From positions 1-29,641 of the forward strand of contig JAGGVJ010000011.1 in NCBI GenBank assembly GCA_021158055.1: a DNA stretch of 29,641 nt, written 5' to 3'. This stretch comes from Candidatus Iainarchaeum sp. (lineage in GTDB: Archaea > Iainarchaeota > Iainarchaeia > JAGGVJ01). Position 1 is the first letter of the stretch; each line of letters starts with the position of its first letter. Made by a program: the position numbers and the translations under genes. Positions 3,101-29,595 of this stretch are shown here, one piece after another. The notes below the pieces were generated by a model. The model did not search any database. It was not told where the DNA came from and saw only the letters and a program-made list of their open reading frames with translations.

Positions 3101-6100
3101 GGAGTCGGACAGGAATTCTCAACAGACTTCCTCCCATACTCTCCAAACAACAGTGAATTCGATGGGGAAAACAACCTGCCGACAACTGTGTATCTTACTT
3201 CAGAAGTATTTGAAGGGACATGCAACCCGGCACAACCGGAAACCCTGACAAACTGCTACAAAGGAACAAGACTCAAAATCGACACATCTGAAGAAAACGG
3301 GCTTGGACTGGGCACCCCAAGAGACGTATACTACGGGACGCTTGGAAAAGTAGAAGCGCCAATAGTCATAACCAAACCAGCCCTTCTCAACATATCTTTT
3401 GTTGAAGACATGGATGGGGACGGAGCAAACGACATCATCACCCAAGTCAACAGAGGTGAAATAATAGATGTCGGCGTCAAGGTAACCAACGAAGGAGGCA
3501 TGCCTGCAAGAAACGCATACGTGCAGCTATCCAACAAATGCATGGAAAACATCACTCCTATAACCCTTGAAGACGGTGAATGCCTCGGAACCTGTTCCCC
3601 GTTAGAAACAACCACCACCACTTGGAAAAACATCACTAAAAACTCTGAAAAACTTGAACTGGCACCTGGACAACCGTCAAGAATGGACTTCGGGACACTT
3701 GCACCGACCCAGACAGGAACAGCAGTGTTTTCAATGAAAATAAAGAAAGGAGCAGACCTGCAATACGTTTACCAGTGCTTTGAAACAAACGCTGAAAACA
3801 CGGCGCTTGGCAACCTCTACCAGTCAACCAGCACACCGCACAACATATACCTGAGGAACATCAAAGCAGGAAGCTACAGCATCTTTGTATCCCCAAGAAC
3901 CTTCGTGGCAGGAAACCTGGACATATCATACGGAAGCTCATACGTAAGCGCGCCTTTCATGATAAGCAACACAACCACGGCTTACATGAAAGACCTGACA
4001 GCAACATGCGAGGGAACAATATGTGACAACGGGATACTATCCATAAACGGACACTACTTCACGGCAGACACCTCCACACTTGTGGTGGGGAACATTGCAG
4101 GCGGAGGAACTGCACCACTGCACATAGGACTAAGGGCGACAACGTCAACAACACCCGGACTTTACTCCGGAACACTAACCCTTATCGGTCACCTGAACAC
4201 CGGGGAAAACATATTTGCCGGAATCACCATTGAAAAAAACAAAAACGGAATAATTGAATTCAAAGGAACTTCAGGAAAACCAATCAAAGAAAACACGCTG
4301 GACTTCTCTGCCGCAAAAACAGGCCTTAAAGAACAATCAATTGAATTTGTGGGGCTTGCGGGCGCAGACGAAACAATAAACTTTGAAGGCGACGAAAACA
4401 TTTTGGGAATCACTGAATTCGAAGTCACAAACGCAATAGAATTCAGCATAAAAAACCCAAACACGGGACAAGACCTAAACTCCATTGAAATAGTGGCGCC
4501 AATCCTGAAAGAAACCTCTTTCCCCATAACAGTGAAAAACAAAAACTCAAGCACTTTGCCGCTGAACTTAAAAACAAGCAATACCCGCATAATCTTCTTC
4601 AAAGATGCAGACGGCAACATAATTACAGGCATTTCACTGGCAGCTTCAGCTGAACAAACCGTTAACCTGGTAATAAAACCACCTTACGGCGCAAGATCAA
4701 TGAAATACCTGTACTATGCGGTAATTGAAAAACAGGGAGCCAGTGACACAAAAATAAACCTGCCGGTCTTCATCAATGTCCCTGTGGACATTGACATAAT
4801 ACCGGTGAAATTAACAAGAAACCTGCAAAGAGGAGACAAGTCATGTTCAATGCCACCGGAAAGCGACGCCACAGGGGAATGCACCCAGGAAGACGCGAAC
4901 ATCATAACCATGATAAACTATTCAAGGTGGCCGACAATGTCACTGATGAACTACGACTCTAACTGGATCCAGACAAACAAAAGTGAAAACCTGATCACAC
5001 TGGACGGTTACGATTCAGACATACTTGACTTCAACATAACAACCCCAACAAACATACCTCCTGGAGGATACGCAAAAAGAATCGAAATGAGTTCAGGCGG
5101 AAAAAGCAAAAATGCCCTGATATACATAAACGTGCCTGACGACACAAAAATATTCAGGGAAACTGATCAGGGAGACGAGTCGCTAAGAGCAATCATAAGG
5201 GCAACTTTTGAAAACACAACTGTTTCAGAAACAGTCAAAGTCGTGTCAGCAATAGAGCAAGCTGCAGACATTGCCTACTCAGGAATCGGAACCAACCCGG
5301 TTCCGGCTGAATGGGTACAGGTAAGCCAAAACATTCTGGCATTCACAGGCAGCTGCAGCAACTTCTCGTGCAGTGACACTTTTGATATCAGCATCAGCGT
5401 GCCTGAAGGGCAGCCACCGGCAACATACACCGGGCTCATAACCATAAACGCAAACAACAACATAAGCAGGGTATACATCACATTAATCGTGATGCCAAAA
5501 CCAATGCCTGTTACATACGAAGCATACGATTCGGACACAGGAGCAACGCAAAACCAAAGCATAACTGCGCCTGTTCACATCACATACAACGTAGAACCGG
5601 ACACGTGCGGAAACGGGCAGTGTGACGATACGGAAACGCCGACAAGCTGTCCAGGCGACTGCGGAAGCACCGGAGGGACAAGCTGCGGAAACGAAACATG
5701 TGAACCGGGACTTGGAGAAACAGCAAGCACCTGTTCTTACGATTGCACAACTGTCGCTGAAAACACTTGCGGTGACGGATACTGCGCAAGCCCTGAAACA
5801 GACATAAACTGTCCAAGCGACTGCGGAAGCACCGGAGGAACAGCATGTGGAGACAGCATCTGCGGACCCGGTGAAAACAATGACAACTGCAACGTGGACT
5901 GTATCGACGCAACTGACGAAAACGTTGTTGCAAACCCAATAATTGTCCGCACGACACCAAACTATTACGCGGCACAAATATATGACGGGACAAACGACTA
6001 TACAACCATAGACATTGCAAACAACTCACCGGCAGACAATGTAAGCTTCAAGATAACCTATGAAGAGCACAGCCAAGGGCTGCCAAGGTCATGGCTGAGG

Positions 6101-9100
6101 GCAAAAAGGGGAACAGGCGCTGAATACTTTGACATAACTGAAAGCTATTCAGACGAATTCACCTTGCTTGCGAAAAACGAAACCAACATTCCAAACGAGT
6201 CTGCAGACAAAGTAAACGAGACAAGCGTTACGATAGACATTGACGTTCCGCCGCTGACCCAGCCAGGAATTTACTCCGGAAAATTCATAATATCATCAGA
6301 GGTCTGGAGCGGGGAAACCCAGGGAGAAGGAGTGATAGTCTTTTACAACCAGGACATATTCCCATTGCTTATCAAAGTGCCGGAAAGAATCATTGTTTCC
6401 AGAAACCAGATAAACCTCACAGTACCCGACGGCACAACAAGTTCAGCAGCATCCTTTTCGATAACAAACCTCGGAGGAAAAGTCGACCTCGAAAATGTCA
6501 CAATCACAGCTGACAAAATAGGTCAAAACGCAATAGAACCGGACTGGGTCACCTTTACCCAAAACGATTTCACAGTATACAGCGGGGGAGGCACAGAAAC
6601 AGTTACCATGACTGTAACCGTACCTGAAGGGAAACCGTTCGGGGTAGCGACAGGAATGCTGAAAATAACCGGAACACTTGCCACTGCAAATGACTACAAA
6701 AACTACATAATGGTCTTCGTATCAATCCCGAAAAGACTTGCGGTTTCCTGTTCAACGTCTTCAGCTGTCAGCAGCTGTTCCACCCGCGGGATAAATGTTA
6801 ACGTACCGTCCAGCTATGTCGGAACCGGCGGTTCCGTGCCTGTCAATTTCACCGTAAGCAACACCAGACCTGGTTCAGGGATAACTGTGGGCTCAAGGTA
6901 CAGTGAAACAGGAGACGGGTTCTGGGACGATGAAAACATTTACATAGGAAGCCAGAACCAGTCAGAAGGTCCGTTTGTGACTCCTTCGCCGGTAAACCCA
7001 CAAGGCAGCCAGACTGTCCAGATGAACATAAGCATACCTGTAGGAATACCCCCAGGAACATACACAGGAAAAATAAGCTTCGAGTACCAGATGGAAAAAA
7101 TAACATTCCCGATAAAAATCTCTGTCCCGTTCGAATACAACTTCAGCTTTAACCAGACCGAAACAGAAGTATTTGACGGAACACCCACAAACATCGGCAC
7201 AATAACAACAGACGTCATCAACCAGGACACAAGCGCGATAGTTACAGTGACACAAAGGGGAAGTTCCCCGGTGTCACCGTTCTGGTTCAGAATTGGAGAA
7301 CCTGTCAAATGGCTTGTTTACGAGGGAGACAACACGCTGACTACAGACGTAAACATTACCGTGCCTGCCACAAACAGGACAACAACCAGGGCTTACTCCG
7401 GGTACATAGCAGTCGTGTTCACGGCAACCGCTACATACGACAGGATACCCTTCACAATAACCGTGAAAAACTCAATAAGCCCTGACCCGTCAAGCATAAG
7501 CCTTATTGTCGGAGACGGCGGTTCAATAACCACCGCAATCGGACTGAAAAACGAAAGCCCGAACGAATTTAACGTGTTCAACAGCGAATTTGTTGAATTC
7601 AGCCCGATCGGAGCAAGGACAATAAACACCGACTGGCTGATTTCCCAGCCCGCCAACAATGCATACTCTGTGTCAGGAGGGGATACTGACAGTGAAAACT
7701 ACACCTTTGAAGTTCCATTGTCAGACAGCATGAACTACGACTACTATGACTACTCCGGAACATACACTGGAAACGTGTACATCCGGGGAACAATAGAGAG
7801 CCAGGCATATTACTACAACGTGCCTGTAAGCATAAACATCCCAAAAAGCATGGAAGTAAGCCCGGGTTCACAGAGCATAAGCGGAAAATACGACGGTGAA
7901 ACAGCATCATTCAGCCCGTTTGTCATCAAAAACAGGTCTGCCGTAGCAATTGAAAACCTCAGCTACAATGTTCTGGAAACAGGGTTAAACCCGATTTCGG
8001 ACAGCTGGGTTTCAGGCTCTTTCGACGCAATAGCCATACCGGCTTGTGCCGACCAGTCAAACTGCAGCACAACCGACCTGAACCTGGACGTAACCCTTGC
8101 CGTGGACACTCCGCCCGGAACCTACACTGCCGACATCGTAATAAGCGGAGACAAAACAAAAGGCAGTGAAACAAAAACCGTGCTCTCAAAAGTCAGCATT
8201 GCAGTACAGGTTCTTGACAGGTTTGCAATCAAAAACAACCAGTCATCCATACTGCTGGTGACCCCGCCGGGAACAGGAGACAGCCTTGACTGCGAAGGAG
8301 TTCTCATACCAAAAGACACCGGATATCTAGACTGCAATCCTGAACTAAGCTGCGGAGACTCGGGATTCAACGACGACTGCAACCCGTGGGGTGAAGAAGC
8401 AGTAAGCTCGTTCACAGTGCAAAACCTCGGAAGTGATATAACACTGACCTGCACGCTTAACAAACAGCAAACCGGAACAATGCCTGCTGAAACAAGCTGG
8501 CTGACACTTGAAGTAGACGGCGTTGAAGTAACAAGTTCATTTACAGTATCCCCGACAAGTGAAAAAATAATCAACGTGAAAGCACAGGTGCCGCAGATAC
8601 CAAAAGGCGCTTACACTGCATCAGTTACAACAAGCTGCTGGGGGGGAGCCGACCCGATCAAAGCAAGGAACAAGACAGTGAACGTAACAATGAGCACTCC
8701 TCTTGCGTGGGGCATAAGCCCGCCGGAAAGTAACTGGACGCTAAGCACTTTCAGCTATGATTACCCGAACATGAATGAAGGAGACCCGTTGTACCTGGCA
8801 TTCACAGCGCAGTCAGTAAATGAAGCAACAGGCGTAACAGTAAGCATCGCCAACCCCTCAAGCGGCGCGTCTGCAAAAGACTGGCTGTCGCTTGACAGGA
8901 GTGTCCTGATAATTCCGAAAGGCGGTTCTGACACAGTCAGCGTGACCGGAAACGCGCCGATCGGGGCAAGCGGGGACTACTCTGCAGTGATCCAGTTTAA
9001 AACAACGCTAACAAACGAAATAAAAACCAGAACCATAAACTTCACAGTTGGAGCATCGCTTGAACTCACTTCAAGCGCGATAACGGCAAACACAACTGAA

Positions 9101-9811
9101 GGCGTTGAAACAGTGCTGACTGACGGATTCGGAGTAATCAACGGAACAACCGGAACATTCCACACCGTGACTTACTCGGTACTCGGTGCAAGCGGTGAAG
9201 GAACACTGCCAGTACAACCGGCATGGTTCGCTTTCTCCGAAGGGACAAGCGGATGGAACGGGACAAACGGCATTGACGGTGGAAACACCGGACTTGTCAA
9301 TGTGTCAATCACGCCAACATCCGGAACAACACCAGGAACATACACAGGAGACATTACAGTGACAACCAAAAGGGACATCACCGTAAACAGCGTCACGACC
9401 ACAATCACGCAGTCAAAAACAATACCTGTGACCATAACTGTCGGAAACACCCTCTCGCTTGACAAGACCTCGGTAATCAAATCTGTTGACGAAGGAACAA
9501 GCGGAACAGAAGTGATAACTGTGACAAACAACAGCACGGTTTCAGGCGTGAACATAGAAAGTGTGGATGTGTCCGGAACATGGCAGGCAAAAGGCGAATG
9601 GGTAACGGTGACACCTGCAACCCCGCAGGCAATTGCCGCAGGAACAAATACGGCGTTTACCATAACCGTGTCAGTTCCAACCCCTGGATCGTCTGGTGAC
9701 TACGCCGGAGAATACACGGGAACTGTTACCTTTGTTTCAGACAAGGGCGAATCAAAAACCGTGGACCTGATAGTAAGGGTCAATACAAGCGTTGTTATTG
9801 ACGTCTGCTAA
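101..9811 (+). CDS. Giant secreted surface protein with tandem Ig-like repeats and Cys-rich modules (3236 aa)
   Basis: The first ATG follows a GGTGAGA ribosome site with good spacing. Residues 1-29 look like a Sec signal peptide (charged MMKMKSFK, hydrophobic core, then AVGQAQ). The rest has no clear membrane segment. From about residue 320, and densely from about 1700 to the end, a unit of about 110-130 residues recurs. Each unit has a Trp motif (EWVQV, DWVTF, DWLIS, SWLTL, DWLSL, EWVTV) and, about 30-50 residues later, a V-P-x-G-x-PPGTYTG-like turn; I count at least a dozen. Such beta-sandwich strings are typical of archaeal adhesins or S-layer-like proteins. Cys-rich islands lie at about 627-670 (CGDGNIDAGEECD) and 1836-1934 (four CGxxxCxxxExxxxCxxDC modules). 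A Gly/Ser linker lies at about 804-818. N-x-S/T sequons are frequent, suggesting glycosylation. The last residue is Cys, and no C-terminal anchor is visible. Exact function is unknown; adhesion or an outer sheath is inferred. Confidence 0.9.
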   Translation: MMKMKSFKVNSLFLVFITFIAILAVGQAQVLDSMTYTDQEGCTAKVDVGDGIFNNNVYCTGCADPRVVIEKTADPESVAMNPNVELDKNTKVTITLTIKNYSGLAIKGTVWDAISGTNIELVDNIDGDIYSTKTENYFKSIEPTEEELETINTVVPTAKITKYLQTIYYNEISKLSDKKNYIMKINAVDSKTKLPNGRFEIIDSTTEMLPPENTGYPWFFLDKQLERMDGISYKEYNYLLSWDINVDRCALETDGSCPAPTIHKIVYTVRPLQRGTIKLGRSFLEYKNSVTENFDISIPDLINPIIKKPGETELVNLTISNSSPEAISNLSVMMLGDLGYRNWVSFPGREKLCTSTEHEPTNVNMWLNPDETIVMPVKISVPETETEKAATGLYVGYINVCITDAEDGLDNFQIGRSQNCKHIPLVVMVERPPEYGDPIDLGYTNHTPDDCMPCSDSLLPKETCSMCSVQQKVTDVLDKPINSANLEIKYLDENLNLVTDHFTTDSDGIANVTYPYGESLNCSHTVKVSKSDPINPKMNEITAHTYSRQWFNCTPTDTIVGYKPLELIIEAPSIVAAVGAYNMIVTANIPVFDVIYTQATRALYTTVTRGKTSPPLPPEDLIGGPLCGDGNIDAGEECDPPGTLSGWYIQGDTTTYYLCGQDCKLHPQQISGTFNICDQLKQAADNCNETETHYIKVSEDRVLINPEESPTMSAYEHVQLVDAKECKLSCHIAWQTQTDMHLQNSPPLYQILELEEEVDASYEAQPGESIRTYTVTNPECRALKDTYQDTCVGEPNRILGRVLNLSGSGGSGGGTGGSAWSSPAPRRRTTDTPRQTFDSTDDSNSQCTSARDGCCYPVEDGICDPDCEGIYGFCDTPSCVDTFTTEAEAEACYSEAVSTVNCASDPDCTMISWNPPTITVAGVKVIKMTISETVVVDDMPFEKSVTVSAHNTVSDEAIEMWARLTMVWETPATGVKKYVTLNSGGTGDGKMQIKQGIGLVGVGQEFSTDFLPYSPNNSEFDGENNLPTTVYLTSEVFEGTCNPAQPETLTNCYKGTRLKIDTSEENGLGLGTPRDVYYGTLGKVEAPIVITKPALLNISFVEDMDGDGANDIITQVNRGEIIDVGVKVTNEGGMPARNAYVQLSNKCMENITPITLEDGECLGTCSPLETTTTTWKNITKNSEKLELAPGQPSRMDFGTLAPTQTGTAVFSMKIKKGADLQYVYQCFETNAENTALGNLYQSTSTPHNIYLRNIKAGSYSIFVSPRTFVAGNLDISYGSSYVSAPFMISNTTTAYMKDLTATCEGTICDNGILSINGHYFTADTSTLVVGNIAGGGTAPLHIGLRATTSTTPGLYSGTLTLIGHLNTGENIFAGITIEKNKNGIIEFKGTSGKPIKENTLDFSAAKTGLKEQSIEFVGLAGADETINFEGDENILGITEFEVTNAIEFSIKNPNTGQDLNSIEIVAPILKETSFPITVKNKNSSTLPLNLKTSNTRIIFFKDADGNIITGISLAASAEQTVNLVIKPPYGARSMKYLYYAVIEKQGASDTKINLPVFINVPVDIDIIPVKLTRNLQRGDKSCSMPPESDATGECTQEDANIITMINYSRWPTMSLMNYDSNWIQTNKSENLITLDGYDSDILDFNITTPTNIPPGGYAKRIEMSSGGKSKNALIYINVPDDTKIFRETDQGDESLRAIIRATFENTTVSETVKVVSAIEQAADIAYSGIGTNPVPAEWVQVSQNILAFTGSCSNFSCSDTFDISISVPEGQPPATYTGLITINANNNISRVYITLIVMPKPMPVTYEAYDSDTGATQNQSITAPVHITYNVEPDTCGNGQCDDTETPTSCPGDCGSTGGTSCGNETCEPGLGETASTCSYDCTTVAENTCGDGYCASPETDINCPSDCGSTGGTACGDSICGPGENNDNCNVDCIDATDENVVANPIIVRTTPNYYAAQIYDGTNDYTTIDIANNSPADNVSFKITYEEHSQGLPRSWLRAKRGTGAEYFDITESYSDEFTLLAKNETNIPNESADKVNETSVTIDIDVPPLTQPGIYSGKFIISSEVWSGETQGEGVIVFYNQDIFPLLIKVPERIIVSRNQINLTVPDGTTSSAASFSITNLGGKVDLENVTITADKIGQNAIEPDWVTFTQNDFTVYSGGGTETVTMTVTVPEGKPFGVATGMLKITGTLATANDYKNYIMVFVSIPKRLAVSCSTSSAVSSCSTRGINVNVPSSYVGTGGSVPVNFTVSNTRPGSGITVGSRYSETGDGFWDDENIYIGSQNQSEGPFVTPSPVNPQGSQTVQMNISIPVGIPPGTYTGKISFEYQMEKITFPIKISVPFEYNFSFNQTETEVFDGTPTNIGTITTDVINQDTSAIVTVTQRGSSPVSPFWFRIGEPVKWLVYEGDNTLTTDVNITVPATNRTTTRAYSGYIAVVFTATATYDRIPFTITVKNSISPDPSSISLIVGDGGSITTAIGLKNESPNEFNVFNSEFVEFSPIGARTINTDWLISQPANNAYSVSGGDTDSENYTFEVPLSDSMNYDYYDYSGTYTGNVYIRGTIESQAYYYNVPVSINIPKSMEVSPGSQSISGKYDGETASFSPFVIKNRSAVAIENLSYNVLETGLNPISDSWVSGSFDAIAIPACADQSNCSTTDLNLDVTLAVDTPPGTYTADIVISGDKTKGSETKTVLSKVSIAVQVLDRFAIKNNQSSILLVTPPGTGDSLDCEGVLIPKDTGYLDCNPELSCGDSGFNDDCNPWGEEAVSSFTVQNLGSDITLTCTLNKQQTGTMPAETSWLTLEVDGVEVTSSFTVSPTSEKIINVKAQVPQIPKGAYTASVTTSCWGGADPIKARNKTVNVTMSTPLAWGISPPESNWTLSTFSYDYPNMNEGDPLYLAFTAQSVNEATGVTVSIANPSSGASAKDWLSLDRSVLIIPKGGSDTVSVTGNAPIGASGDYSAVIQFKTTLTNEIKTRTINFTVGASLELTSSAITANTTEGVETVLTDGFGVINGTTGTFHTVTYSVLGASGEGTLPVQPAWFAFSEGTSGWNGTNGIDGGNTGLVNVSITPTSGTTPGTYTGDITVTTKRDITVNSVTTTITQSKTIPVTITVGNTLSLDKTSVIKSVDEGTSGTEVITVTNNSTVSGVNIESVDVSGTWQAKGEWVTVTPATPQAIAAGTNTAFTITVSVPTPGSSGDYAGEYTGTVTFVSDKGESKTVDLIVRVNTSVVIDVC
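5606..5902 (+). repeat. Four-copy Cys-rich module inside the giant exoprotein
   Basis: Four copies of a CGxxxCxxxExxxxCxxDC pattern occur in a row. Copies 1 and 3 are followed by nearly identical 33-nt stretches (5648-5680 and 5810-5842, two mismatches) encoding a CGSTGGT-type linker. This shows duplication of a two-module unit 162 nt (54 residues) long. The cysteines probably form disulphides outside the cell. The module interrupts the Ig-like repeat string. Confidence 0.8.
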
Positions 9812-17607: not shown

Positions 17608-18090
17608 TTATGCTACGAGGGTGTATTCTTCACCGACAACTCCTTCAGGTCCAGTTACTTTGAACTTATGTGAAGTTGAACTACCTGAAACATCACATGC
17701 TGCAAGAAGTGCGTCGGTGAATATAATGGTTGTTCTGTTTCCATCACCCAATGCATCCTCTGTGTCAGTATCACTACAATACTGCCCATCAACATACAAC
17801 GAATATGCTCCACTATTAATTATGCTTCCACCGATGTTCCTGATTGAAACACTAACATCTACAGCGTCAGCAACTAAATCACTATTTGCTATCTGTGACT
17901 CAATAGCAATCTGCTTGTTTTTGTTGATCTTTGTGTCAACTGTGTCTCTTACTTTTGCCTGTGTTCCGGACTGAAGTCCTACGCTCCAAATGTAAGCGAG
18001 AACTGCGGCTGCTACTGCAACTGCGACCATCAGAACGACGGCAATAACTGGAGACAACGCTCTTTTATCTTTTCTTAATATTGTCTTCAT
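17608..18090 (-). CDS. Type IV pilin (archaeal class III signal peptide), 160 aa
   Basis: The N-terminus KDKRALSPVIAVVLMVAVAV is a textbook archaeal prepilin signal. Cleavage by a PibD/FlaK-type peptidase is expected after the Lys-Arg, before ALSPVIA. The roughly 22-residue hydrophobic helix would form the filament core. The remaining part is a beta-rich head (DVSVSIRNIGGSIINSGAYS, VDGQYC) like the neighbouring 166-residue pilin, which shares the NIGG/NKG..I.SG.Y pattern. The ATG follows a strong GGAGGTAA ribosome site and a TATA-like CTTTTTAAAG at 18150-18141. A strong ribosome site, own promoter and strong terminator suggest a major subunit; this is inference. Confidence 0.9.
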   Translation of the reverse strand: MKTILRKDKRALSPVIAVVLMVAVAVAAAVLAYIWSVGLQSGTQAKVRDTVDTKINKNKQIAIESQIANSDLVADAVDVSVSIRNIGGSIINSGAYSLYVDGQYCSDTDTEDALGDGNRTTIIFTDALLAACDVSGSSTSHKFKVTGPEGVVGEEYTLVA

Positions 18091-20755: not shown

Positions 20756-21523
20756 TCACTCAATATTCGTCTCACCATTGTCCGGCATACGGGTCCAAAA
20801 AAACCATATGCCAAGGGACACAAGTATCATGCCTTCCCGCCAGATAAATATGTGGAAAAGGTCAAATACCCAGTAACCAATGTCGTGGACACCCATCATT
20901 ATTGTGGTAATTCTGACTACATTTGCAAAGTAAATCAGCGGAACACCAATCAGAAGGCCAAAAAGTTTTTTTCTAAAGCCTGCAAACGGATACCCGACGA
21001 TTAAACCGATCACCGCAAGAATGCTTATGTAGCCAACGCATTCCCTTACTATCGAGCTTCTGAAAACTGCCTGGTTTTCGTTAGAGTCCCTGAATTCCAT
21101 TACTATTGTGGGGCCCTCTTCCCCCCATTTTACATCGCTTTCCTCAAGCGCGTTGACAATGGCAGCCCTGGACTCGTCAGTGTACGCCAGAACAGCAATA
21201 AACACATCGCCGTTCTTTTGAATCAAGGGGTCTTCGCTTGCCGAAAGGGCAATTACTTTTGACACCGCTCCGTTTGAAAAATCTTTCTTCTCAAACTCGA
21301 CAATCAGATTCTTGTCTTCAAAAGTTGAAGGATAGCCGACCATGTTAAGCAGCAAAGTCGAATGAACTGACACAAGCTCTCTTACCTGGGGTATGTCCAG
21401 CTGGGAATTGGAAATAAAAAACACGACAGCTCCGAAAAAAGCCATCACCACCAAAAAAGAAAGCACATTTAGCAAAAATTTATCTTTTTTTTCAAGCCTC
21501 AAGTCAACCAAAAAAACACCCAT
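20756..21523 (-). CDS. Exosortase/archaeosortase-family transpeptidase
   Basis: Enzymes of this family are membrane cysteine proteases. They cleave a C-terminal sorting signal from exported proteins and join the protein to a lipid or another anchor. Numbered from an upstream TTG (21529), the three family hallmarks are present: Cys164 in VRECVGY, Arg206 in NVVRI and His226 in DLFHIF. All lie in or next to the C-terminal hydrophobic helices. One N-terminal helix (about 21-40) is followed by a roughly 120-residue soluble segment and then three or four helices, so this is a short family form. The start is uncertain: TTG 21529, ATG 21523, or TTG 21511, which has GGTG at good spacing. A TATA-like GTTAATATACG at 21558-21549 fits all three. 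No PGF-CTERM-like substrate tail is encoded in this window. Confidence 0.85.
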   Translation of the reverse strand: MGVFLVDLRLEKKDKFLLNVLSFLVVMAFFGAVVFFISNSQLDIPQVRELVSVHSTLLLNMVGYPSTFEDKNLIVEFEKKDFSNGAVSKVIALSASEDPLIQKNGDVFIAVLAYTDESRAAIVNALEESDVKWGEEGPTIVMEFRDSNENQAVFRSSIVRECVGYISILAVIGLIVGYPFAGFRKKLFGLLIGVPLIYFANVVRITTIMMGVHDIGYWVFDLFHIFIWREGMILVSLGIWFFWTRMPDNGETNIE

Positions 21524-21622
21524 CCACAAAAAAAATAATAATGTAATCGTATATTAACATTGCGACTGAACCAAACCCCAAAGTAACTGCAACACCTCAA
21601 CAAATCCGCTGCAACAACAAAC

Positions 21623-21780: not shown

Positions 21781-22647
21781 ATGTTTTGCAGGAAAAGAAA
21801 AACTGTCTTAAGAGGGCTTTCAAACATAATATCATTTACTTTGCTGGTCTTCATTGCAGTGGTGCTTGTCGCAGGAATTTACGCATGGTCAAACAATCTT
21901 CTGACAACATACACGTCAAAACTTGACAGGGAAAGCACAGACACATACAAATCACTCCAGTCATCCATTACGCTGTCCCTTCCGGCATACGCGCGCGAAA
22001 ACAAACCCTACTACGCAGTGGCATACAACAACGGCAACTTCGGAGTCAAAAAACTGCGCGCAACACTCTACAAAAACTCCGGGGGAACAGAAACACCCAC
22101 AATACTTGACGAAAACCACACCGTCGCAACCACACTGAACACAGGGAAAACCGTGCTTCTGAAATTTGACTCCTACAAGCCAAAACAAGGCGACCAACTG
22201 GTTCTCTGGAGCGCAGAATACATGGCAAGGCAAACTTACAAAAGCGACATTGAATTCGTGCTTGCGTCCGGAAACGAACAAAGCACGCCGTCAAAAACAG
22301 ATGTTGACAGCGTTGATTCAAACAAGTTGGCTCTTTCAAACAACTCAAACTGCGTGGCAGCAAACACATTCGAATGGGACCTTGGAACAACAGAACCGAA
22401 AATTGACAGCATTTTCCTTGACGCGTACCTTGACGTGAACGCTTCAAGCACCATTGAAATACGCGACCAAAACGATGTGCTTGTCGAAACAGACACAGTG
22501 CAAACCCAAACCTCAGCCCACTACACTTACAACATTTCAGGCGCAGACACCTCAACACCCGCGACTTTCAAGATATGCATAAAAGAAACAAGCGGAAACC
22601 AGTTAAACATTAATTACTTAAAACCGGTGGTCATCTATGAACAGTAA
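21781..22647 (+). CDS. Pilin-like/archaellin-like surface protein, 288 aa
   Basis: The N-terminus RKTVLRGLSNIISFTLLVFIAV has a class III prepilin form: charged segment, Gly, then a hydrophobic helix. Cleavage is expected after LRG. It continues into AGIYAWSNNLL. The remaining 240 residues are soluble, rich in Ser, Thr and Asn, and carry several N-x-S/T sites. The segment 60-130 (YYAVAYNNGNFGVKKLRATLY) resembles the Ig-like fold of pilin-associated proteins. It is the first gene of the pilus operon, with AAGGGAA as ribosome site. It overlaps the next gene by 11 nt, so the two products are probably made in similar amounts. It is larger than the two minus-strand pilins, so it may be a minor or tip subunit. 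Confidence 0.8.
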   Translation: MFCRKRKTVLRGLSNIISFTLLVFIAVVLVAGIYAWSNNLLTTYTSKLDRESTDTYKSLQSSITLSLPAYARENKPYYAVAYNNGNFGVKKLRATLYKNSGGTETPTILDENHTVATTLNTGKTVLLKFDSYKPKQGDQLVLWSAEYMARQTYKSDIEFVLASGNEQSTPSKTDVDSVDSNKLALSNNSNCVAANTFEWDLGTTEPKIDSIFLDAYLDVNASSTIEIRDQNDVLVETDTVQTQTSAHYTYNISGADTSTPATFKICIKETSGNQLNINYLKPVVIYEQ

Positions 22648-23110
22648 AAAAAGCCGGAGCAAAGCCCTTTTCGGTAAAAGGGGACAGTCGCAAATGATTG
22701 CCTTTCCAATCCTGTTCGCAATACTTTTGGTCACGTGGGTTCTTTTAACTTACAGCTTTTACGACTCCTCAAACAACTCCCAAAAAGCACTAAACGAGCT
22801 CAACGACCGCCACAGGATCGAAATCCATTCCTCGTTTTCAGCCGAAAACCTGCCAGGTCCGACCAGTTCAGGCGGGCATGTAAAAAACAGCGGGGAAATC
22901 ACTTTCACAAACACAAACGCAATACTCGTGCCGTTCGACGGCTCAAATTCAACTCACTCAAAAAACCTTGGAAGGATAATCCCGAAACAAACAAAAGCAG
23001 TGTCTTTTGACCCTGCAACCATAACTTACGGAGACATTGTAATTCTCAGGTCAGTGCAAACGCACCTCGTGTCAAACATCCTGCCGCTTGAAAACAAAGC
23101 AAGCGGGTGA
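22637..23110 (+). CDS. Pilin-like protein, 157 aa
   Basis: The prepilin-type N-terminus FGKRGQSQMIAFPILFAILL suggests cleavage after KRG. The hydrophobic helix runs on to VTWVLLTYSFY. The head of about 110 residues has the beta pattern GEITFTNTNAILVPFDG, with no cysteines. The ATG overlaps the preceding pilin gene, whose 3' end supplies a GGTGG ribosome site. The 156-nt gap to the ATPase gene contains a further promoter. It probably assembles with the 288-residue partner as a minor component; the family is not identified more closely. Confidence 0.8.
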   Translation: MNSKKSRSKALFGKRGQSQMIAFPILFAILLVTWVLLTYSFYDSSNNSQKALNELNDRHRIEIHSSFSAENLPGPTSSGGHVKNSGEITFTNTNAILVPFDGSNSTHSKNLGRIIPKQTKAVSFDPATITYGDIVILRSVQTHLVSNILPLENKASG

Positions 23111-23224
23111 AAATAACGTTAAACGGATAACCTAAAAAATAACCTGAACTTTTATTCAGGAACAAAAGATGAAACAGATAGAAACAGGTCAACAGATAAT
23201 GTTTTTTTCAAAAAACAAAAAACA

Positions 23225-23232
23225 TTTATAAA
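23225..23232 (+). promoter_or_regulatory. Internal promoter before the pilus ATPase gene
   Basis: TTTATAAA predicts a start near 23254. This lies after the upstream ATG (23237) and 13 nt before the ATG at 23267. It supports the later start and allows the motor genes to be expressed apart from the pilins. Confidence 0.5.
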
Positions 23233-23266
23233 CAACATGAAACTTTCAATAATTCAGGGCGAGATT

Positions 23267-25108
23267 ATGTCAAAAAAAACAATTTCACTAACGCAGACTA
23301 AAAAAAAACAGCCGGCCAAACAAAGATACGCATCCAAAACCGAAAAATCAGGTGTTAGAAGAAAGAAAAGACAAGAAAAACAAGCTGATCTAAAAATCGA
23401 AACCAAGGTAATACCTGAAAAAAACCTTGAATTCAAGTTATTTAATGAAGAAGCCCTTAAACTGCAGACACTGAACAAAACATCAACAATCAATAAAACA
23501 GCAATCAAAATTAAAAAAACTGACCTTGCCAAAAACAAGGTAAAAGCAATAAAAGAAAAACACGCTGACAAAAAATTTCTTGGCTCGACCGACTCAAAGT
23601 TTTTGGAATCGCTTGAAAACAAAATGAAAGCAAACCTTGTGGAAATCGAAAACTACGAAGTGCTCAAAGACACAGTGACAGTCAAAATAGTCAGCGAAGA
23701 AGGAAACTTTTATTACCTCATAAAAGAACCGCCTCTTTCAAAAAGCGAAACTGCATTGCTTGAACTGTTAAAAGAGTCGATAATACAGCTCTCGGAAGGC
23801 ACAAAGCAGCCGATCAACCAGCAGATAGACCAGGCAACCAAACGGTTCATGATCCCCATTCCAAACGAATCCCTTGAAAAAATAAAATACTTCATAAGGC
23901 GCGATTTTCTCGGGTACGGAATCATTGACGCCATAATGCATGACCCGCAAATAGAAGACATCAGCTGCAACGGGACACAAAGCCAGATCTATGTGCATCA
24001 CAGAAAATACGGTTCAATTGAAACAAACATCGGCTTTGACGAGCTGGAACAACTGAAATCATACGTTGTAAGGCTCTCCCAACAGTGCAACAAATTCATC
24101 TCCTTTGCAGAACCGCTCATGGACGGGACCCTGCCTGACGGAAGCAGGGTGCAAAGCACCTACGGCGCAGGAATAACCGTAAACGGCCCGACTTTTTCAA
24201 TAAGGAAAATCACAAAAACACCGCTGACTCCGCTGGACCTTATCCGGTTCAAGACACTGAGCCCTGAAATGGTTGCTTATTTCTGGCTTGTCATTGAAAA
24301 CAAAATGAACATGCTGATAAGCGGGGGAACAGCAACAGGAAAAACCGCAATGCTTAACTCGCTTGCAATGTTCATCCCTGAAAACCTCAAGATAGTTTCA
24401 GTGGAAGACACTTCCGAACTGAACTTAATCCACAAAAACTGGATTCATTCAATCTCAAGGCCCGGTTACGGGCCGGCTGACGCACAAGGAAACCGCTACG
24501 GTGAAGTTTCTCTTTTTGACCTCGTGAAAGCATCTTTAAGGCAAAGGCCTGATTACCTGATAGTAGGTGAAGTCAGGGGACAGGAAGCATACACTCTTTT
24601 TCAGGGAATGGCAACAGGACACGCCGGACTCGGAACATTTCACGCAAAATCACTTGAGTCAATCATTGACAGGCTTACAATGCCCCCAATAAACCTGCCT
24701 TCTTCCCTGCTGGAACTCCTGGATGTCGTTGCAATCCAGACACTTGCGCCTGAATACGGAAACAACGCAAGAAGAAGCCAGAAAGTGCTTGAAATTGCAA
24801 AAATAAGTAAAACTCACGCTTATTCAAACACTGTTTTTGAATGGAAGCCTGCCAAAGACAACTACACAATAAACAAAAAAAGCCTGAATCTGGAAAAAAT
24901 CGCCCATCATCGCGGCATGACTTACCCGGAAATAAAAAAAGAACTCAAAAGGCGCGCGAAGTTCCTTAAAGCAATGTCTGATAAAAAAGTGGACTTTGAA
25001 AAGTTCAACACCCACTTGAGAAACTACAGGAGAGACCCTGAAAACACCCTGGACAGACTCAAGGGAAAGACCAACGCCCTAAAAAAAGTTAAAGGAAAGA
25101 TTAAATGA
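23267..25108 (+). CDS. Type IV pilus/archaellum-type secretion ATPase (ArlI/VirB11/TadA superfamily), 613 aa
   Basis: This is the cytoplasmic hexameric motor that powers filament assembly. The N-terminal extension (about 110 residues) is Lys-rich and unusual. The N-terminal domain (about 110-300) includes YGIIDAIMHDPQIEDISCNG and the arginine-rich DGTLPDGSRVQ segment. In the RecA-like domain I see Walker A GGTATGKTAM, the Asp box VEDTSELN, Walker B/Glu region LIVGEVRGQEAYTLFQ, and the His box ATGHAGLGTFHAKS. All catalytic motifs are intact. I prefer ATG 23267 over 23237 because of the TATA box at 23225. The stop overlaps the start of the next gene (ATGA), indicating translational coupling to the platform protein. 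No archaellum arlC-H genes are present, so an adhesive pilus is more likely than an archaellum. Confidence 0.95.
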   Translation: MSKKTISLTQTKKKQPAKQRYASKTEKSGVRRKKRQEKQADLKIETKVIPEKNLEFKLFNEEALKLQTLNKTSTINKTAIKIKKTDLAKNKVKAIKEKHADKKFLGSTDSKFLESLENKMKANLVEIENYEVLKDTVTVKIVSEEGNFYYLIKEPPLSKSETALLELLKESIIQLSEGTKQPINQQIDQATKRFMIPIPNESLEKIKYFIRRDFLGYGIIDAIMHDPQIEDISCNGTQSQIYVHHRKYGSIETNIGFDELEQLKSYVVRLSQQCNKFISFAEPLMDGTLPDGSRVQSTYGAGITVNGPTFSIRKITKTPLTPLDLIRFKTLSPEMVAYFWLVIENKMNMLISGGTATGKTAMLNSLAMFIPENLKIVSVEDTSELNLIHKNWIHSISRPGYGPADAQGNRYGEVSLFDLVKASLRQRPDYLIVGEVRGQEAYTLFQGMATGHAGLGTFHAKSLESIIDRLTMPPINLPSSLLELLDVVAIQTLAPEYGNNARRSQKVLEIAKISKTHAYSNTVFEWKPAKDNYTINKKSLNLEKIAHHRGMTYPEIKKELKRRAKFLKAMSDKKVDFEKFNTHLRNYRRDPENTLDRLKGKTNALKKVKGKIK

Positions 25109-25962
25109 AGTTCTTTCAACAATGCCATGCCCTGCTCAGGAAACCAAAAATAACTGCGTTTAGCGAACTCAACAAGCCGATATTTAAATCAAACATAGGT
25201 TCAACCCCCTACGAATTCAAGGCCGGGCTTGTGGTTATTCCCATACTGACTTTTATTTTCACTGCCGCAGTTTCAACCCTGATAGCCATCACAGTATTCA
25301 GTATCAAACCAGACATGATATTAGTACTTTTAATCTCCACTGTTTTTTTCCTTATCTCCTTTGTTTTTGTCTATTACTACCCTGAAGAAATAATTTCCAC
25401 AAGAAACAGGAAAATAAACAGCAACCTGCCGTACGCGCTAAACTACATGTCTGCGATAATTGACGCGGGAGTAACTCCCCTCGGTTCTTTCAAAACCCTT
25501 TCCGAACTAAGTTACGGCGAAGTAAGCATCGAGTCAAAAAAACTCGTGTCCGGCACAAACCTGGGCCAGGACATGATAACCGCAATGGATGAAAGAATAA
25601 ACTACTCGCCTTCAAAAAGATGGGCAGACATATTAAACTCGCTGAAAATATCTGTCCAGTCCGGGGGAAACATCCGCCAAATGCTCGCGCAAAAAGCACA
25701 GGGGGAGCAAAAAAACCTTAGTCTTGAAATAAGCAAATATCTTGTGAAAGTCGAGACAATAACAACATTTTACATCACATTATTTGTGCTTGTGCCTCTT
25801 TTGATTCTTTTGATGGCTGCAATATTCAATGTCATAAACAGTGCTCTTGACCTGGGCGGGGACATGACATTCACAATAACAGTCCTGATATTCTTTGTCT
25901 TGCCTGCCGCAAACATGATATTTTTCATCCTGCTCAGGACAAACAGGCCAGAGGTGTTTTAA
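25105..25962 (+). CDS. Pilus platform membrane protein 1 (TadC/ArlJ-type, T2SSF domain), 285 aa
   Basis: This is an inner membrane core protein on which the ATPase acts during pilin insertion. Two helices lie at about 45-105 (VIPILTFIFTAAVSTLIAI; LVLLISTVFFLISFVFVYYY). A cytoplasmic T2SSF domain at about 110-215 follows (LPYALNYMSAIIDAGVTPLG; ISVQSGGNIRQML). Two C-terminal helices lie at about 220-280. It is short, with one T2SSF domain. The start overlaps the ATPase stop by 4 nt and the stop touches the GTG start of the next platform gene. The tight packing suggests equal production of both platform proteins. Confidence 0.9.
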   Translation: MKFFQQCHALLRKPKITAFSELNKPIFKSNIGSTPYEFKAGLVVIPILTFIFTAAVSTLIAITVFSIKPDMILVLLISTVFFLISFVFVYYYPEEIISTRNRKINSNLPYALNYMSAIIDAGVTPLGSFKTLSELSYGEVSIESKKLVSGTNLGQDMITAMDERINYSPSKRWADILNSLKISVQSGGNIRQMLAQKAQGEQKNLSLEISKYLVKVETITTFYITLFVLVPLLILLMAAIFNVINSALDLGGDMTFTITVLIFFVLPAANMIFFILLRTNRPEVF

Positions 25963-27186
25963 GTGCACAGAAAAACCGCAAGAATACTCATCTTTTCAGC
26001 TTTGAACGCAGTCATCATTCTTCTGGCAGACATTTTCTGGTTCAACATGGAATACTTTGAACTAATGATATTTGCAGGGATAGTCATAACAATCGCTCCG
26101 GCGGCAATAGTGAATTTTCACCACTCTTCAGTAATTAAAAAAAGAGAAAAAGAATTCCCAAAAGTATTAAGCGACTTATCCCACTCGCTTGAAACCGAAA
26201 TGACCATCACCCAAGCAGTGGAGCTGGTAAGTAAAAGTGATTTCGGCGAGCTTGACCCGCAAATAGAGCGTTTGAAATACCGATTAACTGAAATGCACAT
26301 GCCTTTTAACCAGGCATTTGAAATTTTTGGAAAAGAAACAGAAAGCACTGAAATCAAGCAGTCAATCAAGGCAATTATCGGTGCGTACAACGACGGCGGA
26401 AACCTAAAAAAAGTTTTCGCTTCCATTTCAGAAAGTTCAAGGCAACTGACTACCCTGAAACTAAAACGCGAAAACAGGGCTTACACCCACATCCTTGTCG
26501 CTTACGTGATTTTTTTTATTTTCCTTGCAATAGTAATCGGTTTGACAGTTACATTTGCGGCGCTGACTAAAACAGACATGGACATTAACTTTGAAACCCA
26601 CGTAGGAAACCTGATTCCAGAAGAGTTTTCAATGCTTTTGTCAGAATCAGGCCAGACAATAAAACTATTCAAAGAAACAGGAATAGAACAAAAAATAACA
26701 GCCATCGTGAACAAAACACTTGAACCCGGCGAACCGGTGCCAAAAGGGCACAACAAAGATGACTTCCTGTTCATATTTGTCTCCCCGGACAAAGACCTGT
26801 CAATCCTTGACAAAGTGGAATACGCAGGAACAGACTACGAAATAACCGAACTTGTCGGGGCTTTAAAAGACGCTGACGGGGAAATGGTTTACTTAAAATA
26901 CGCGCTGAAAAAAACCAGGGAAGAAATACAACAAAGCCTGCTTAAAGAAAACGAAGAAATGCTCATGGGCGACATAGACAATGCATTCGGTGGTTTTTCA
27001 GACTTTCAGTACTTGTTTTTCGGCTTGAACATCATTATCGGAATATTCCTCGGCCTCTTCATCGGTGAAATAAACGAGGGAAGCTTCATTCTCGGCTTGA
27101 AACACAGCGCGATATTTGTCACCACCACAATAATCGCATTCTCATCAATTGACCTGGTCACTGAATTAATCGTGGGACTTATCTGA
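25963..27186 (+). CDS. Pilus platform membrane protein 2 (TadC/ArlJ-type) with large inserted domain, 407 aa
   Basis: The GTG start directly follows the stop of platform protein 1. Two N-terminal helices (about 8-52) precede a T2SSF domain at about 60-175 (PKVLSDLSHSLETEMTITQA; AYNDGGNLKKVFASISES). The third helix is at about 178-203. About 140 residues then follow without a membrane segment (from TKTDMDINFETH to roughly 340, containing YAGTDYEITELVGALKDADG) before two last helices at about 345-405. The insertion is absent from its partner. I do not recognise its fold, which includes mixed beta strands and a helical end. The two proteins probably form a heteromeric platform, as in TadB/TadC systems. 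Confidence 0.9.
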   Translation: MHRKTARILIFSALNAVIILLADIFWFNMEYFELMIFAGIVITIAPAAIVNFHHSSVIKKREKEFPKVLSDLSHSLETEMTITQAVELVSKSDFGELDPQIERLKYRLTEMHMPFNQAFEIFGKETESTEIKQSIKAIIGAYNDGGNLKKVFASISESSRQLTTLKLKRENRAYTHILVAYVIFFIFLAIVIGLTVTFAALTKTDMDINFETHVGNLIPEEFSMLLSESGQTIKLFKETGIEQKITAIVNKTLEPGEPVPKGHNKDDFLFIFVSPDKDLSILDKVEYAGTDYEITELVGALKDADGEMVYLKYALKKTREEIQQSLLKENEEMLMGDIDNAFGGFSDFQYLFFGLNIIIGIFLGLFIGEINEGSFILGLKHSAIFVTTTIIAFSSIDLVTELIVGLI

Positions 27187-27440: not shown

Positions 27441-27565
27441 TGTTTGGCAACGTCATGAAGTTCCCGCTTGCTCACGCAAAGCAGTACAATTCAAATCGCT
27501 GATGAACTTAACTTCTGAGTTCGAGACGAGTTCAGGTGTTGCTCCAACGCTATGATCGCCAAACA
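27441..27565 (-). rRNA. rrf: 5S ribosomal RNA
   Basis: On the minus strand the 125-nt segment starts TGTTTGGCGATCATAGCG and ends GACGTTGCCAAACA. The first and last 8 bases pair perfectly (helix I). The inner part has the conserved CGAACTCAGAAGTTAAG of loop B/helix III. The segment GGAGCAACACCTGAACT also fits archaeal 5S. A TTTAAATA box 25 nt upstream and a T-rich end support an independent transcript. No 16S or 23S gene is in this window, so the 5S is unlinked or distant from them. Confidence 0.95.
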
Positions 27566-27611: not shown

Positions 27612-27884
27612 TCATTTCTTCAGACTCTTGATAATCTCAAGGGTTTTTTTCAGGGCCCTTTCAACATCCGCTTCGCACCTTGCACCAGTGCAAATTATTT
27701 TACCGTTTTTGAAAAGCAAAAGAGAGCTTTTTGGATCAGTAAGCTTTAGAATCAGACCTGGAAACTGTTCCGGTTCGTATTCTGCATTATCAATGCCTGT
27801 CGCAATACCATAAAGGTCAAGTTCCATTCCGAGAGAAGCACTGGCAACAATGTTCACTATAGTGTAATCTATCTTATCCGTCAT
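27612..27884 (-). CDS. tbp: Single-repeat TATA-binding protein (TBP half), 90 aa
   Basis: The sequence matches exactly one of the two repeats of archaeal TBP, the factor that bends promoter DNA and recruits TFB. Motifs in order are NIVAS (11-15), LGMELDL (18-24), EYEPEQFPG (35-43), LKLTDPKSSLLLF (46-58), GKIICTGA (61-68) and EADVERA (71-77). The two phenylalanines that wedge into TATA DNA are at 41 and 58. It mixes hallmarks of both halves: NIVAS is typical of the first, EYEPEQFPG and the GKI.C.GA form of the second. Canonical archaeal TBP is about 180 residues. Here the frame has its own ATG, a GGGGG ribosome site and a TGA stop. The 5S promoter follows at once, so no second repeat exists downstream. 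It should act as a homodimer or with a separate partner; a second normal TBP elsewhere cannot be excluded. Confidence 0.9.
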   Translation of the reverse strand: MTDKIDYTIVNIVASASLGMELDLYGIATGIDNAEYEPEQFPGLILKLTDPKSSLLLFKNGKIICTGARCEADVERALKKTLEIIKSLKK

Positions 27885-27903
27885 TTAATTCCCCCTTAAA
27901 AAA

Positions 27904-27940
27904 CCATATAAACTATATTTCCCTTTTCTGTCATATAAAC
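27904..27940 (-). promoter_or_regulatory. Two candidate TATA boxes of the TBP gene
   Basis: On the minus strand TTTATATGG (27912-27904) would give a nearly leaderless transcript. GTTTATATG (27940-27932) would give a leader of about 27 nt containing the AAGGGGG ribosome site. The presence of that site favours the distal box. Confidence 0.5.
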
Positions 27941-27979: not shown

Positions 27980-28052
27980 TATTTATGGGCTATTTATATA
28001 GACCACTATTTATATAGACCACTATTTATATAAACTGTAATCTATTTAAATA
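27980..28052. repeat. Array of TATA-like elements, 16-bp period core
   Basis: CTATTTATATAGACCA occurs at 27990 and 28006, followed by the variant CTATTTATATAAACTG at 28022, giving an exact 16-bp period. Further TATTTA words lie at 27980 and 28043 (TATTTAAATA). Both strands read as TATA boxes (TTTATATA forward, TATATAAATA reverse). The array lies about 100-160 nt upstream of the TBP start and about 330 nt upstream of eL21. Confidence 0.85.
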
Positions 28053-28375: not shown

Positions 28376-28663
28376 ATGCCTAAATCAAACGGACCAAGAT
28401 GCAAAACAAGAAACAAATTCAAAAGAGACACAAGGCAGGTAAAACCGACTCCGAACAGCATGTTGAAAGAACTTGCCCCAAACACAAAAGTCAACATACA
28501 CGTTGAATCAAGCGTTCACAGCGGAATGCCTTTCAGGAGATTTATCGGGAAAACAGGGACAATCATGAGCAAAAGAGGCTCCTGCTACCTTGTGAAATTC
28601 AAGGACTCAAACGCTGAAAAAACCATTATAGTGCATCCGGCACATCTCAAAATACAAGGGTGA
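28376..28663 (+). CDS. rpl21e: Ribosomal protein eL21 (L21e)
   Basis: This 95-residue large-subunit protein is shared by archaea and eukaryotes and absent from bacteria. It starts with the basic MPKSNGPRCKTRNKFKRD tail that reaches into rRNA. The SH3-like barrel contains MPFRRFIGKTGTI and the closing segment IIVHPAHLKIQG. The length is typical. The ATG follows an ideal GAGGTGA ribosome site. It is first in an operon with rpoF and a DUF655 gene, an order conserved in many archaea (ksgA often follows, outside this window). Confidence 0.97.
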   Translation: MPKSNGPRCKTRNKFKRDTRQVKPTPNSMLKELAPNTKVNIHVESSVHSGMPFRRFIGKTGTIMSKRGSCYLVKFKDSNAEKTIIVHPAHLKIQG

Positions 28664-28667
28664 AATC

Positions 28668-29021
28668 ATGATCGGAAAAAAAATTACTGAATTCAAATAC
28701 ATAACAATCCCTGAAGCAAAAAAAGTGCTTGACAAAAGAGCAAAAATAGGGGAACTCGGATACGAGCAAAGGCTTGCAAGAGAATACCTAACGGAATTTT
28801 CAAGAATAAATGAAAAAGACGCAAAAAAACTCGCTGAAAAATTAAAAAAAACAGAAAAACTCTCGGAAATCGCAGTAGTGAAAATTATTGATCTGCTGCC
28901 TAAAGACGAAGACGAACTCAGGGTAATCCTTCAAAAAGAACGGTACTCGCTTGAAAAAACCGAAGTTGAAGCAGTACTTTCAGCAGTCAAAGACACACTT
29001 GGCGCAAAAGCAGAAAATTAA
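28668..29021 (+). CDS. rpoF: DNA-directed RNA polymerase subunit F (Rpb4)
   Basis: This 117-residue subunit pairs with RpoE (Rpb7) to form the polymerase stalk, which helps promoter opening and binds emerging RNA. The N-terminal part (FKYITIPEAKKVLDKRAK) contacts RpoE. The C-terminal HRDC-like helical part contains IIDLLPKDEDELRVILQKER, a strong family mark. The start lies 4 nt after the eL21 stop, with GGTGA from the eL21 end as ribosome site. Its operon partners are translation and RNA-linked genes, as usual for archaea. Confidence 0.95.
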   Translation: MIGKKITEFKYITIPEAKKVLDKRAKIGELGYEQRLAREYLTEFSRINEKDAKKLAEKLKKTEKLSEIAVVKIIDLLPKDEDELRVILQKERYSLEKTEVEAVLSAVKDTLGAKAEN

Positions 29022-29040: not shown

Positions 29041-29595
29041 ATGGAACAAAAAATGGAAGAGTATGCAATCGTAATCGATTACATGCCTGAAGGCCGACCG
29101 CTTGACTACAAGCACGAACCAGTAGTGCAAGCAGTGGGAACCGAATACTTCACCACCCTGGAACTGATTCCAAAAAAAGACATCAAGCTTACGATAAACG
29201 AACAGATTTACATCGGAAAAGACGAACGGGAAAAAATCCAGTACATAAAAGGCAGGATAAACTACGACCAGTTAACCAACAACGCGAAATCAGAACTGCC
29301 GGTTATCCTGAAAAAACTTGTTCTGGAACAGGAAGACAAATTCGTGGACTTCATGAACAAATCAGGCTCGCTTACACTGAGAAAACACCAGCTTGAACTG
29401 ATTCCCGGAGTCGGGAAAAAACACATGCTTCAAATACTTAATGAACGGGAAAAAAAACCCTTTAAAGACTTCAAAGACATCATGGAACGGATAAGCCTCA
29501 TGCCTGACCCTCAAAAAATATTTCCGGACAGGATAATTGAAGAGCTGATGGGCAACACAAAATACCACTTGTTCACAAGACCGAAAAAAAGATAA
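29041..29595 (+). CDS. DUF655 family protein with helix-hairpin-helix, 184 aa
   Basis: This is an archaeal conserved protein usually found between rpoF and the 16S dimethyltransferase gene ksgA; its exact role is not known to me. The N-terminal part is an OB-like beta domain (EEYAIVIDYMPEGRPLDYKH). The C-terminal part holds a helix-hairpin-helix nucleic-acid-binding motif, LIPGVGKKHMLQIL, at about residues 120-133. The end TKYHLFTRPKKR is a family mark. The frame is open further upstream (to 28951), but that part overlaps rpoF and is not conserved-looking. ATG 29041 lies 19 nt after the rpoF stop with GGAAAAG before it; ATG 29053 is an alternative. Confidence 0.92.
   Translation: MEQKMEEYAIVIDYMPEGRPLDYKHEPVVQAVGTEYFTTLELIPKKDIKLTINEQIYIGKDEREKIQYIKGRINYDQLTNNAKSELPVILKKLVLEQEDKFVDFMNKSGSLTLRKHQLELIPGVGKKHMLQILNEREKKPFKDFKDIMERISLMPDPQKIFPDRIIEELMGNTKYHLFTRPKKR

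Follow-up and report, generated by a model that had tools for sequence, protein, structure and literature searches.

Can an archaeon run its transcription on a TATA-binding protein (TBP) that has only one of the usual two repeats? Canonical archaeal TBPs (M. jannaschii 2z8u, P. woesei 1ais) carry two repeats in a chain of ~180-200 aa, whereas a gene near one end of the 29,641-nt stretch of DNA that we analysed (the whole of it is called the window below) encodes one repeat in 90 aa, a protein that would have to work either as a lone chain or together with another. It resembles the canonical proteins in its domain, residues and fold, in its locus as seen in relatives and in its TFB partner. The window corresponds to contig 38 in a metagenome-assembled genome (MAG) of 45 contigs and 1.15 Mb, rated 94.93% complete and 0.05% contaminated.

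The gene is an intact open reading frame of 90 codons, from ATG to TGA. The lone Pfam domain of its product is TBP (PF00352), which covers residues 6-87 and profile positions 1-84 of 85 and scores 100.8 bits against a cut-off of 22.9, so the protein has a TBP domain. It has just one in its 90 aa, short of the two repeats per chain of a canonical archaeal TBP, and the full-length NCBIfam TBP models give 65.8-93.3 bits against cut-offs of 181-347. When solved structures were searched, the two lobes of M. jannaschii TBP scored almost equally (77 and 78 bits). N11, V13, F41, L56, F58 and T66, all invariant across the 33 archaeal repeats of our alignment, complete the set of DNA contacts expected in one lobe (Asn, Val, two Phe, Leu, Thr); by the contact roles in established TBP structures, the two intercalating phenylalanines are F41 and F58. 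The AlphaFold2 model is a half-saddle, the fold of half a TBP (mean pLDDT 93.1), and fits M. jannaschii TBP to 0.7 Å over ~81 residues. The earlier note on this DNA had described an intact one-repeat gene with both wedging phenylalanines, and the single PF00352 domain with F41 and F58 agrees with that description. It had also argued that the second repeat was not merely frameshifted, which holds as well: the 5S rRNA gene begins 48 nt past the TBP stop and therefore leaves no room for a second repeat. Upstream, the candidate TATA box has a further copy at 27932-27939. The 16-bp tandem array that lies 5' of the gene had no other occurrence in the assembled genome by pattern search, and one might guess that it serves TBP autoregulation.

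Features at and around the single-repeat TBP gene, in window coordinates
Feature	Position	Strand	Basis and remarks
5S rRNA gene	27442..27563	-	Rfam RF00001, 84.3 bits; 48 nt 3' of TBP stop
Single-repeat TBP gene (90 aa)	27612..27884	-	PF00352 E 3.9e-29; genome's only TBP match; AF2 pLDDT 93.1
Putative ribosome-binding sequence AAGGGGG	27891..27897	-	Sequence reading
Candidate TATA box TTTATATG of TBP gene	27905..27912	-	Sequence reading; similar to a motif that is enriched 30-45 nt upstream of starts across the genome
16-bp unit, 2.7 exact tandem copies, with TATA-like TATATAAATAG	27990..28032	-	TRF
Ribosomal protein L21e, divergent neighbour	28376..28663	+	PF01157; same position in relatives
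RNA polymerase subunit RpoF/Rpb4	28668..29021	+	PF03874; same position in relatives
DUF655 protein	29044..29595	+	PF04919 E 6.6e-62; same position in relatives

The surroundings of the gene tell what it is. Where the neighbouring genes of relatives were read, the two-repeat TBP and an L21e-RpoF-DUF655 operon typically point away from each other. Downstream of TBP and on its own strand, 18 of 20 loci have a 5S gene, at a distance of 28-92 nt in most. In the window, too, the 5S gene lies downstream and the L21e-RpoF-DUF655 genes are divergent, and from the same gene order and the 48-nt gap it follows that the 90-aa gene is a real TBP gene rather than a paralogue, with the two-repeat gene as its positional orthologue, and that the loss occurred in place. 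Secondary loss of one repeat in the host lineage, rather than a primitive state, is thus supported, since the two-repeat TBPs of the relatives occupy this same locus. Of the three origins that had been proposed from the sequence, secondary loss is the one that stands; synteny and the survey described below speak against a primitive state, and the lack of a matching half in the assembled genome speaks against a split protein. The distance between TBP and 5S in the 18 loci (among L002-L028) spans 28-715 nt overall, and with so many loci keeping the two genes side by side in one orientation, they may be co-transcribed across the phylum.

Which of the two lobes survives is less clear-cut. Neither placement is rejected in the lobe tree (AU p 0.33 with the N side, 0.26 with the C side), and the log-odds lobe score of the 90-aa protein, +6.4 bits, falls below those of N lobes (leave-one-out, +14 to +110) and above those of C lobes (-130 to -3), as would be expected if one chain filled both roles. 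The back half is N-type at K47, S53, S54, T66 and V74, five positions that differ between the lobes of relatives, and these comparisons weakly favour an N-type origin for the surviving lobe; that relatives' lobes differ at such positions suggests that each lobe has some private roles, a point against the homodimer proposed below. Phylum-specific residues (LLFKNGK, IIC) are common to the 90-aa protein and the relatives' lobes. Within the relatives' genes (L002-L030), both TBP repeats contain identical stretches of DNA as long as 47 bp, and the phylum-specific motifs FPGA and FKNGK, rare among other aligned archaea, stand on both lobes; together these suggest gene conversion between the lobes.

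Such common words also bear on whether the gene could be an artefact, in which the assembly of a two-repeat gene jumped from repeat 1 into repeat 2 at a common word and so deleted one repeat. We consider this unlikely, even though the source is a MAG, the exact words common to relatives' repeats (9-47 bp) fall mostly at EYEPEQFPG, a collapse there would preserve frame, stop and spacing, and the gap to the 5S gene agrees with that of relatives. A join at EYEPEQFPG would give the protein a C-type back, whereas its back half is N-type, which disfavours recombination at this segment, be it real or artificial. Even the 47-bp word is shorter than the final k-mers usual in modern assemblers. In G082, moreover, the Aenigmatarchaeota MAG to which L098 belongs and which has several TBP genes, the contigs stop at TBP genes and show no collapse, whereas the host contig continues. 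The TBP genes of that MAG lie on C43, C52, C80, C88 and C136, most of them cut at contig ends, and it seems that multiple TBP genes break assemblies.

We consider it decidedly unlikely that the 90-aa gene is a reduced accessory TBP and that a normal two-repeat TBP resides in a part of the genome outside the search. The Pfam TBP model and the archaeal repeat alignment each hit one single site in the source genome, and unfiltered N-lobe and C-lobe profiles, run in six frames over all contigs but C7 and C44 (5.5 kb), found no other TBP repeat or half, which answers the earlier call to look for a second TBP or TBP half in favour of a sole copy in the assembled genome. The runner-up in the lobe-profile search scored 13 bits; it is a 326-codon frame at C45:37155-38132 that may encode a DNA glycosylase. 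Hence no normal two-repeat TBP accompanies the 90-aa protein in this assembly, which is ~5% incomplete. An accessory role could be accommodated by the 94.9% completeness, by the two contigs left aside and by the several TBP genes of some class members (e.g. G056, G022), but a simple estimate puts the chance that any one gene was missed at ~5%, the 90-aa gene retains every invariant residue and it occupies the main conserved TBP locus, where an accessory copy would require a swap of roles. A split TBP with its other half elsewhere was also considered and is disfavoured, since no such half was found in the assembled genome: the N- and C-lobe profiles gave one match above threshold.

The state appears to be rare. 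The host phylum, represented by one class, has a TBP-family match above cut-off in 72 of 80 genomes, and among these 72 we found no second intact single-repeat gene as sole TBP. Two other phyla were surveyed. In the one to which a Nanoarchaeia genome belongs, every one of the 358 genomes that match has at least two TBP matches; in that of an Aenigmatarchaeota genome this holds for 95 of 97, the remaining two running off contig ends. Altogether, no other intact single-repeat sole TBP was seen among ~520 genomes with a TBP-family match in three archaeal phyla, a survey that rests partly on match counts, with open frames read for the best-ranked matches. Two groups of apparent single-match cases were set aside: the genes of G473 and G495 are truncated by a contig end, and halovirus TBPs with one match are encoded by genes of 179-204 aa, the size of a two-repeat TBP. 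The closest relative in a scan of named genomes is 64% identical. The source genome is the only member of its order among the genomes compared, so the one-lobe state is not replicated.

How could one lobe do the work of two? We think it probable that the 90-aa protein is the organism's own general TBP, that it has lost one lobe and that it would act as a homodimeric saddle, with direction given by TFB and BRE. For the wider claim that all transcription of the host depends on such a homodimer, with the ancient duplication and fusion undone and direction left to TFB and BRE, we see the chances as evenly balanced. Two copies would come together about the pseudo-twofold axis familiar from TBP, whether free in solution or once on the TATA box; the homodimer of the surviving lobe would restore a symmetric ten-stranded saddle, and this would bend DNA through four wedging phenylalanines. 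A single, normal TFB would then dock on one stirrup (E37, E39), and its contact with BRE would set the direction. Expression, dimerisation, DNA bending and TFB docking are here inferred for the 90-aa protein, and a homodimer is likely. The partner is at hand: TFB is encoded once in the source genome (~302 aa) and is canonical, with a zinc ribbon, a VPRT motif and two cyclin folds.

The docking surface is also in place. One study describes TFB as docking on two glutamates of the C-terminal TBP lobe (PMC7221094), which by our own mapping correspond to E37 and E39 within EYEPEQFPG of the 90-aa protein. In all 28 class members aligned, the TFB-contacting glutamates are present on both lobes, and either lobe could therefore serve for docking. 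It had been proposed earlier that both stirrups of a homodimer would carry EYEPEQFPG; they would, but this is no novelty of the present protein, and since nearly all relatives have the segment on both lobes the symmetry of the stirrups predates the loss of the repeat.

A monomer, with one lobe gripping half of the TATA box and TFB giving the remaining grip, is possible although less likely than the homodimer, and on balance we find it very improbable. In a normal TBP the first strands of the two lobes pair with each other, so that this edge would be left exposed on a lobe that stands alone; the TATA elements of the genome, besides, are still canonical and 8 bp long. A monomer would nevertheless be in keeping with the requirement of many archaeal TBPs for TFB to form a stable complex with DNA (PMC7289017), with the conserved TFB-contacted glutamates on one lobe only (PMC7221094), and with the ability of the single TBP-like domain of RNase HIII to bind nucleic acid (PMC4132731). 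That the protein is a primitive single-repeat TBP kept from before the duplication is scarcely credible: its intermediate sequence and the two tree placements would suit such an origin, but every other archaeal lineage covered by the searches has two-repeat TBPs, and in the host phylum they occupy this very locus; with the lobes of that phylum the protein has the phylum-specific residues in common.

The promoters of the source genome also bear on the homodimeric reading. The 8-mer most enriched upstream of its genes is TTTATATA. At 30-45 nt before starts, TTTAWATA occurs 18 times in forward and 7 times in reverse orientation, and AAAnnTTTAWA 14 times and once, both above upstream background; in a relative with a two-repeat TBP the corresponding ratio for TTTAWATA is 27:11, a similar polarity. 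Motif discovery by EM recovered BRE-TATA in G003, gave a weaker version of it in G012, and drifted to low-complexity or tRNA sequence in the source genome. Tandem-intergenic counts had hinted at a lost TATA polarity (Fisher p ~0.01, for two of six words), a candidate that we rejected as position-specific counts are normal. Oriented BRE/TATA promoters are thus what the source genome still relies on; since these elements are kept, it must have a working TBP, and promoter direction persists. The intact polarity fits a direction that is set by BRE and TFB, and in known archaea direction relies on the TFB-BRE contact (PMC7289017).

Single TBP domains as such have precedents. Those in archaea are noted as single-lobe versions of TBP (PMC7221094). 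The host phylum has a family of small single-lobe TBP-like proteins (95-118 aa, 20-32 bits) in many genomes of the class, mostly beside a two-repeat TBP; one member is L174:38-325 (G003:C1:420038-420325), and the one that we read has neither the N-terminal strand nor the EPEQFPG stirrup. No member of this family was found in the window's genome. The 90-aa protein differs from it in scoring ~100 bits and in being the sole TBP found, with canonical residues; it is not one of the divergent proteins without contact residues, and it gives 17.6 bits to one 95-aa member of the family. In G031 and G070 a small-family protein is the only TBP-family match, perhaps due to genome incompleteness. Monopartite TBP-domain proteins of archaea were reportedly treated by Brindefalk et al. 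in 2013, and like them the 90-aa protein consists of a single TBP domain and nothing else. The N-terminal domain of RNase HIII and the TBP-like domain of DNA glycosylases likewise use a single TBP-like fold for nucleic-acid binding, but they belong to enzymes and are distant in sequence, glycosylases being weak fold matches to the 90-aa model. Nature has departed from the two-lobe standard in poxviruses as well, whose TBP-like factors VETF-l and VITF-3l are bipartite or tripartite (PMC12917281), whereas the 90-aa protein has a single lobe. Single-lobe TBP-domain proteins were therefore known; what is new is a protein that is TBP by ancestry and by the features of its lobe and yet lacks the two repeats. 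In the partial literature covered we found no report of a genome with a canonical single lobe as its sole TBP.

If it is true that a one-lobe protein is the sole TBP of this organism, the fusion of the two repeats is dispensable. The organism would then be a natural test of the homodimeric ancestor that has been proposed for TBP, and so of the origin of a universal protein, and would separate the share that TBP asymmetry has in promoter direction from that of TFB and BRE. Elsewhere in the window, positions 101-9811 encode a 3236-aa, cysteine-containing, repetitive protein of surface type with no Pfam match, and type IV pilus/archaellum-like genes (an ATPase, two TadC-like membrane proteins and pilin-like proteins; 21781-27186 and 17608-18090) are found alongside a gene for an exosortase-like protein (20756-21529).
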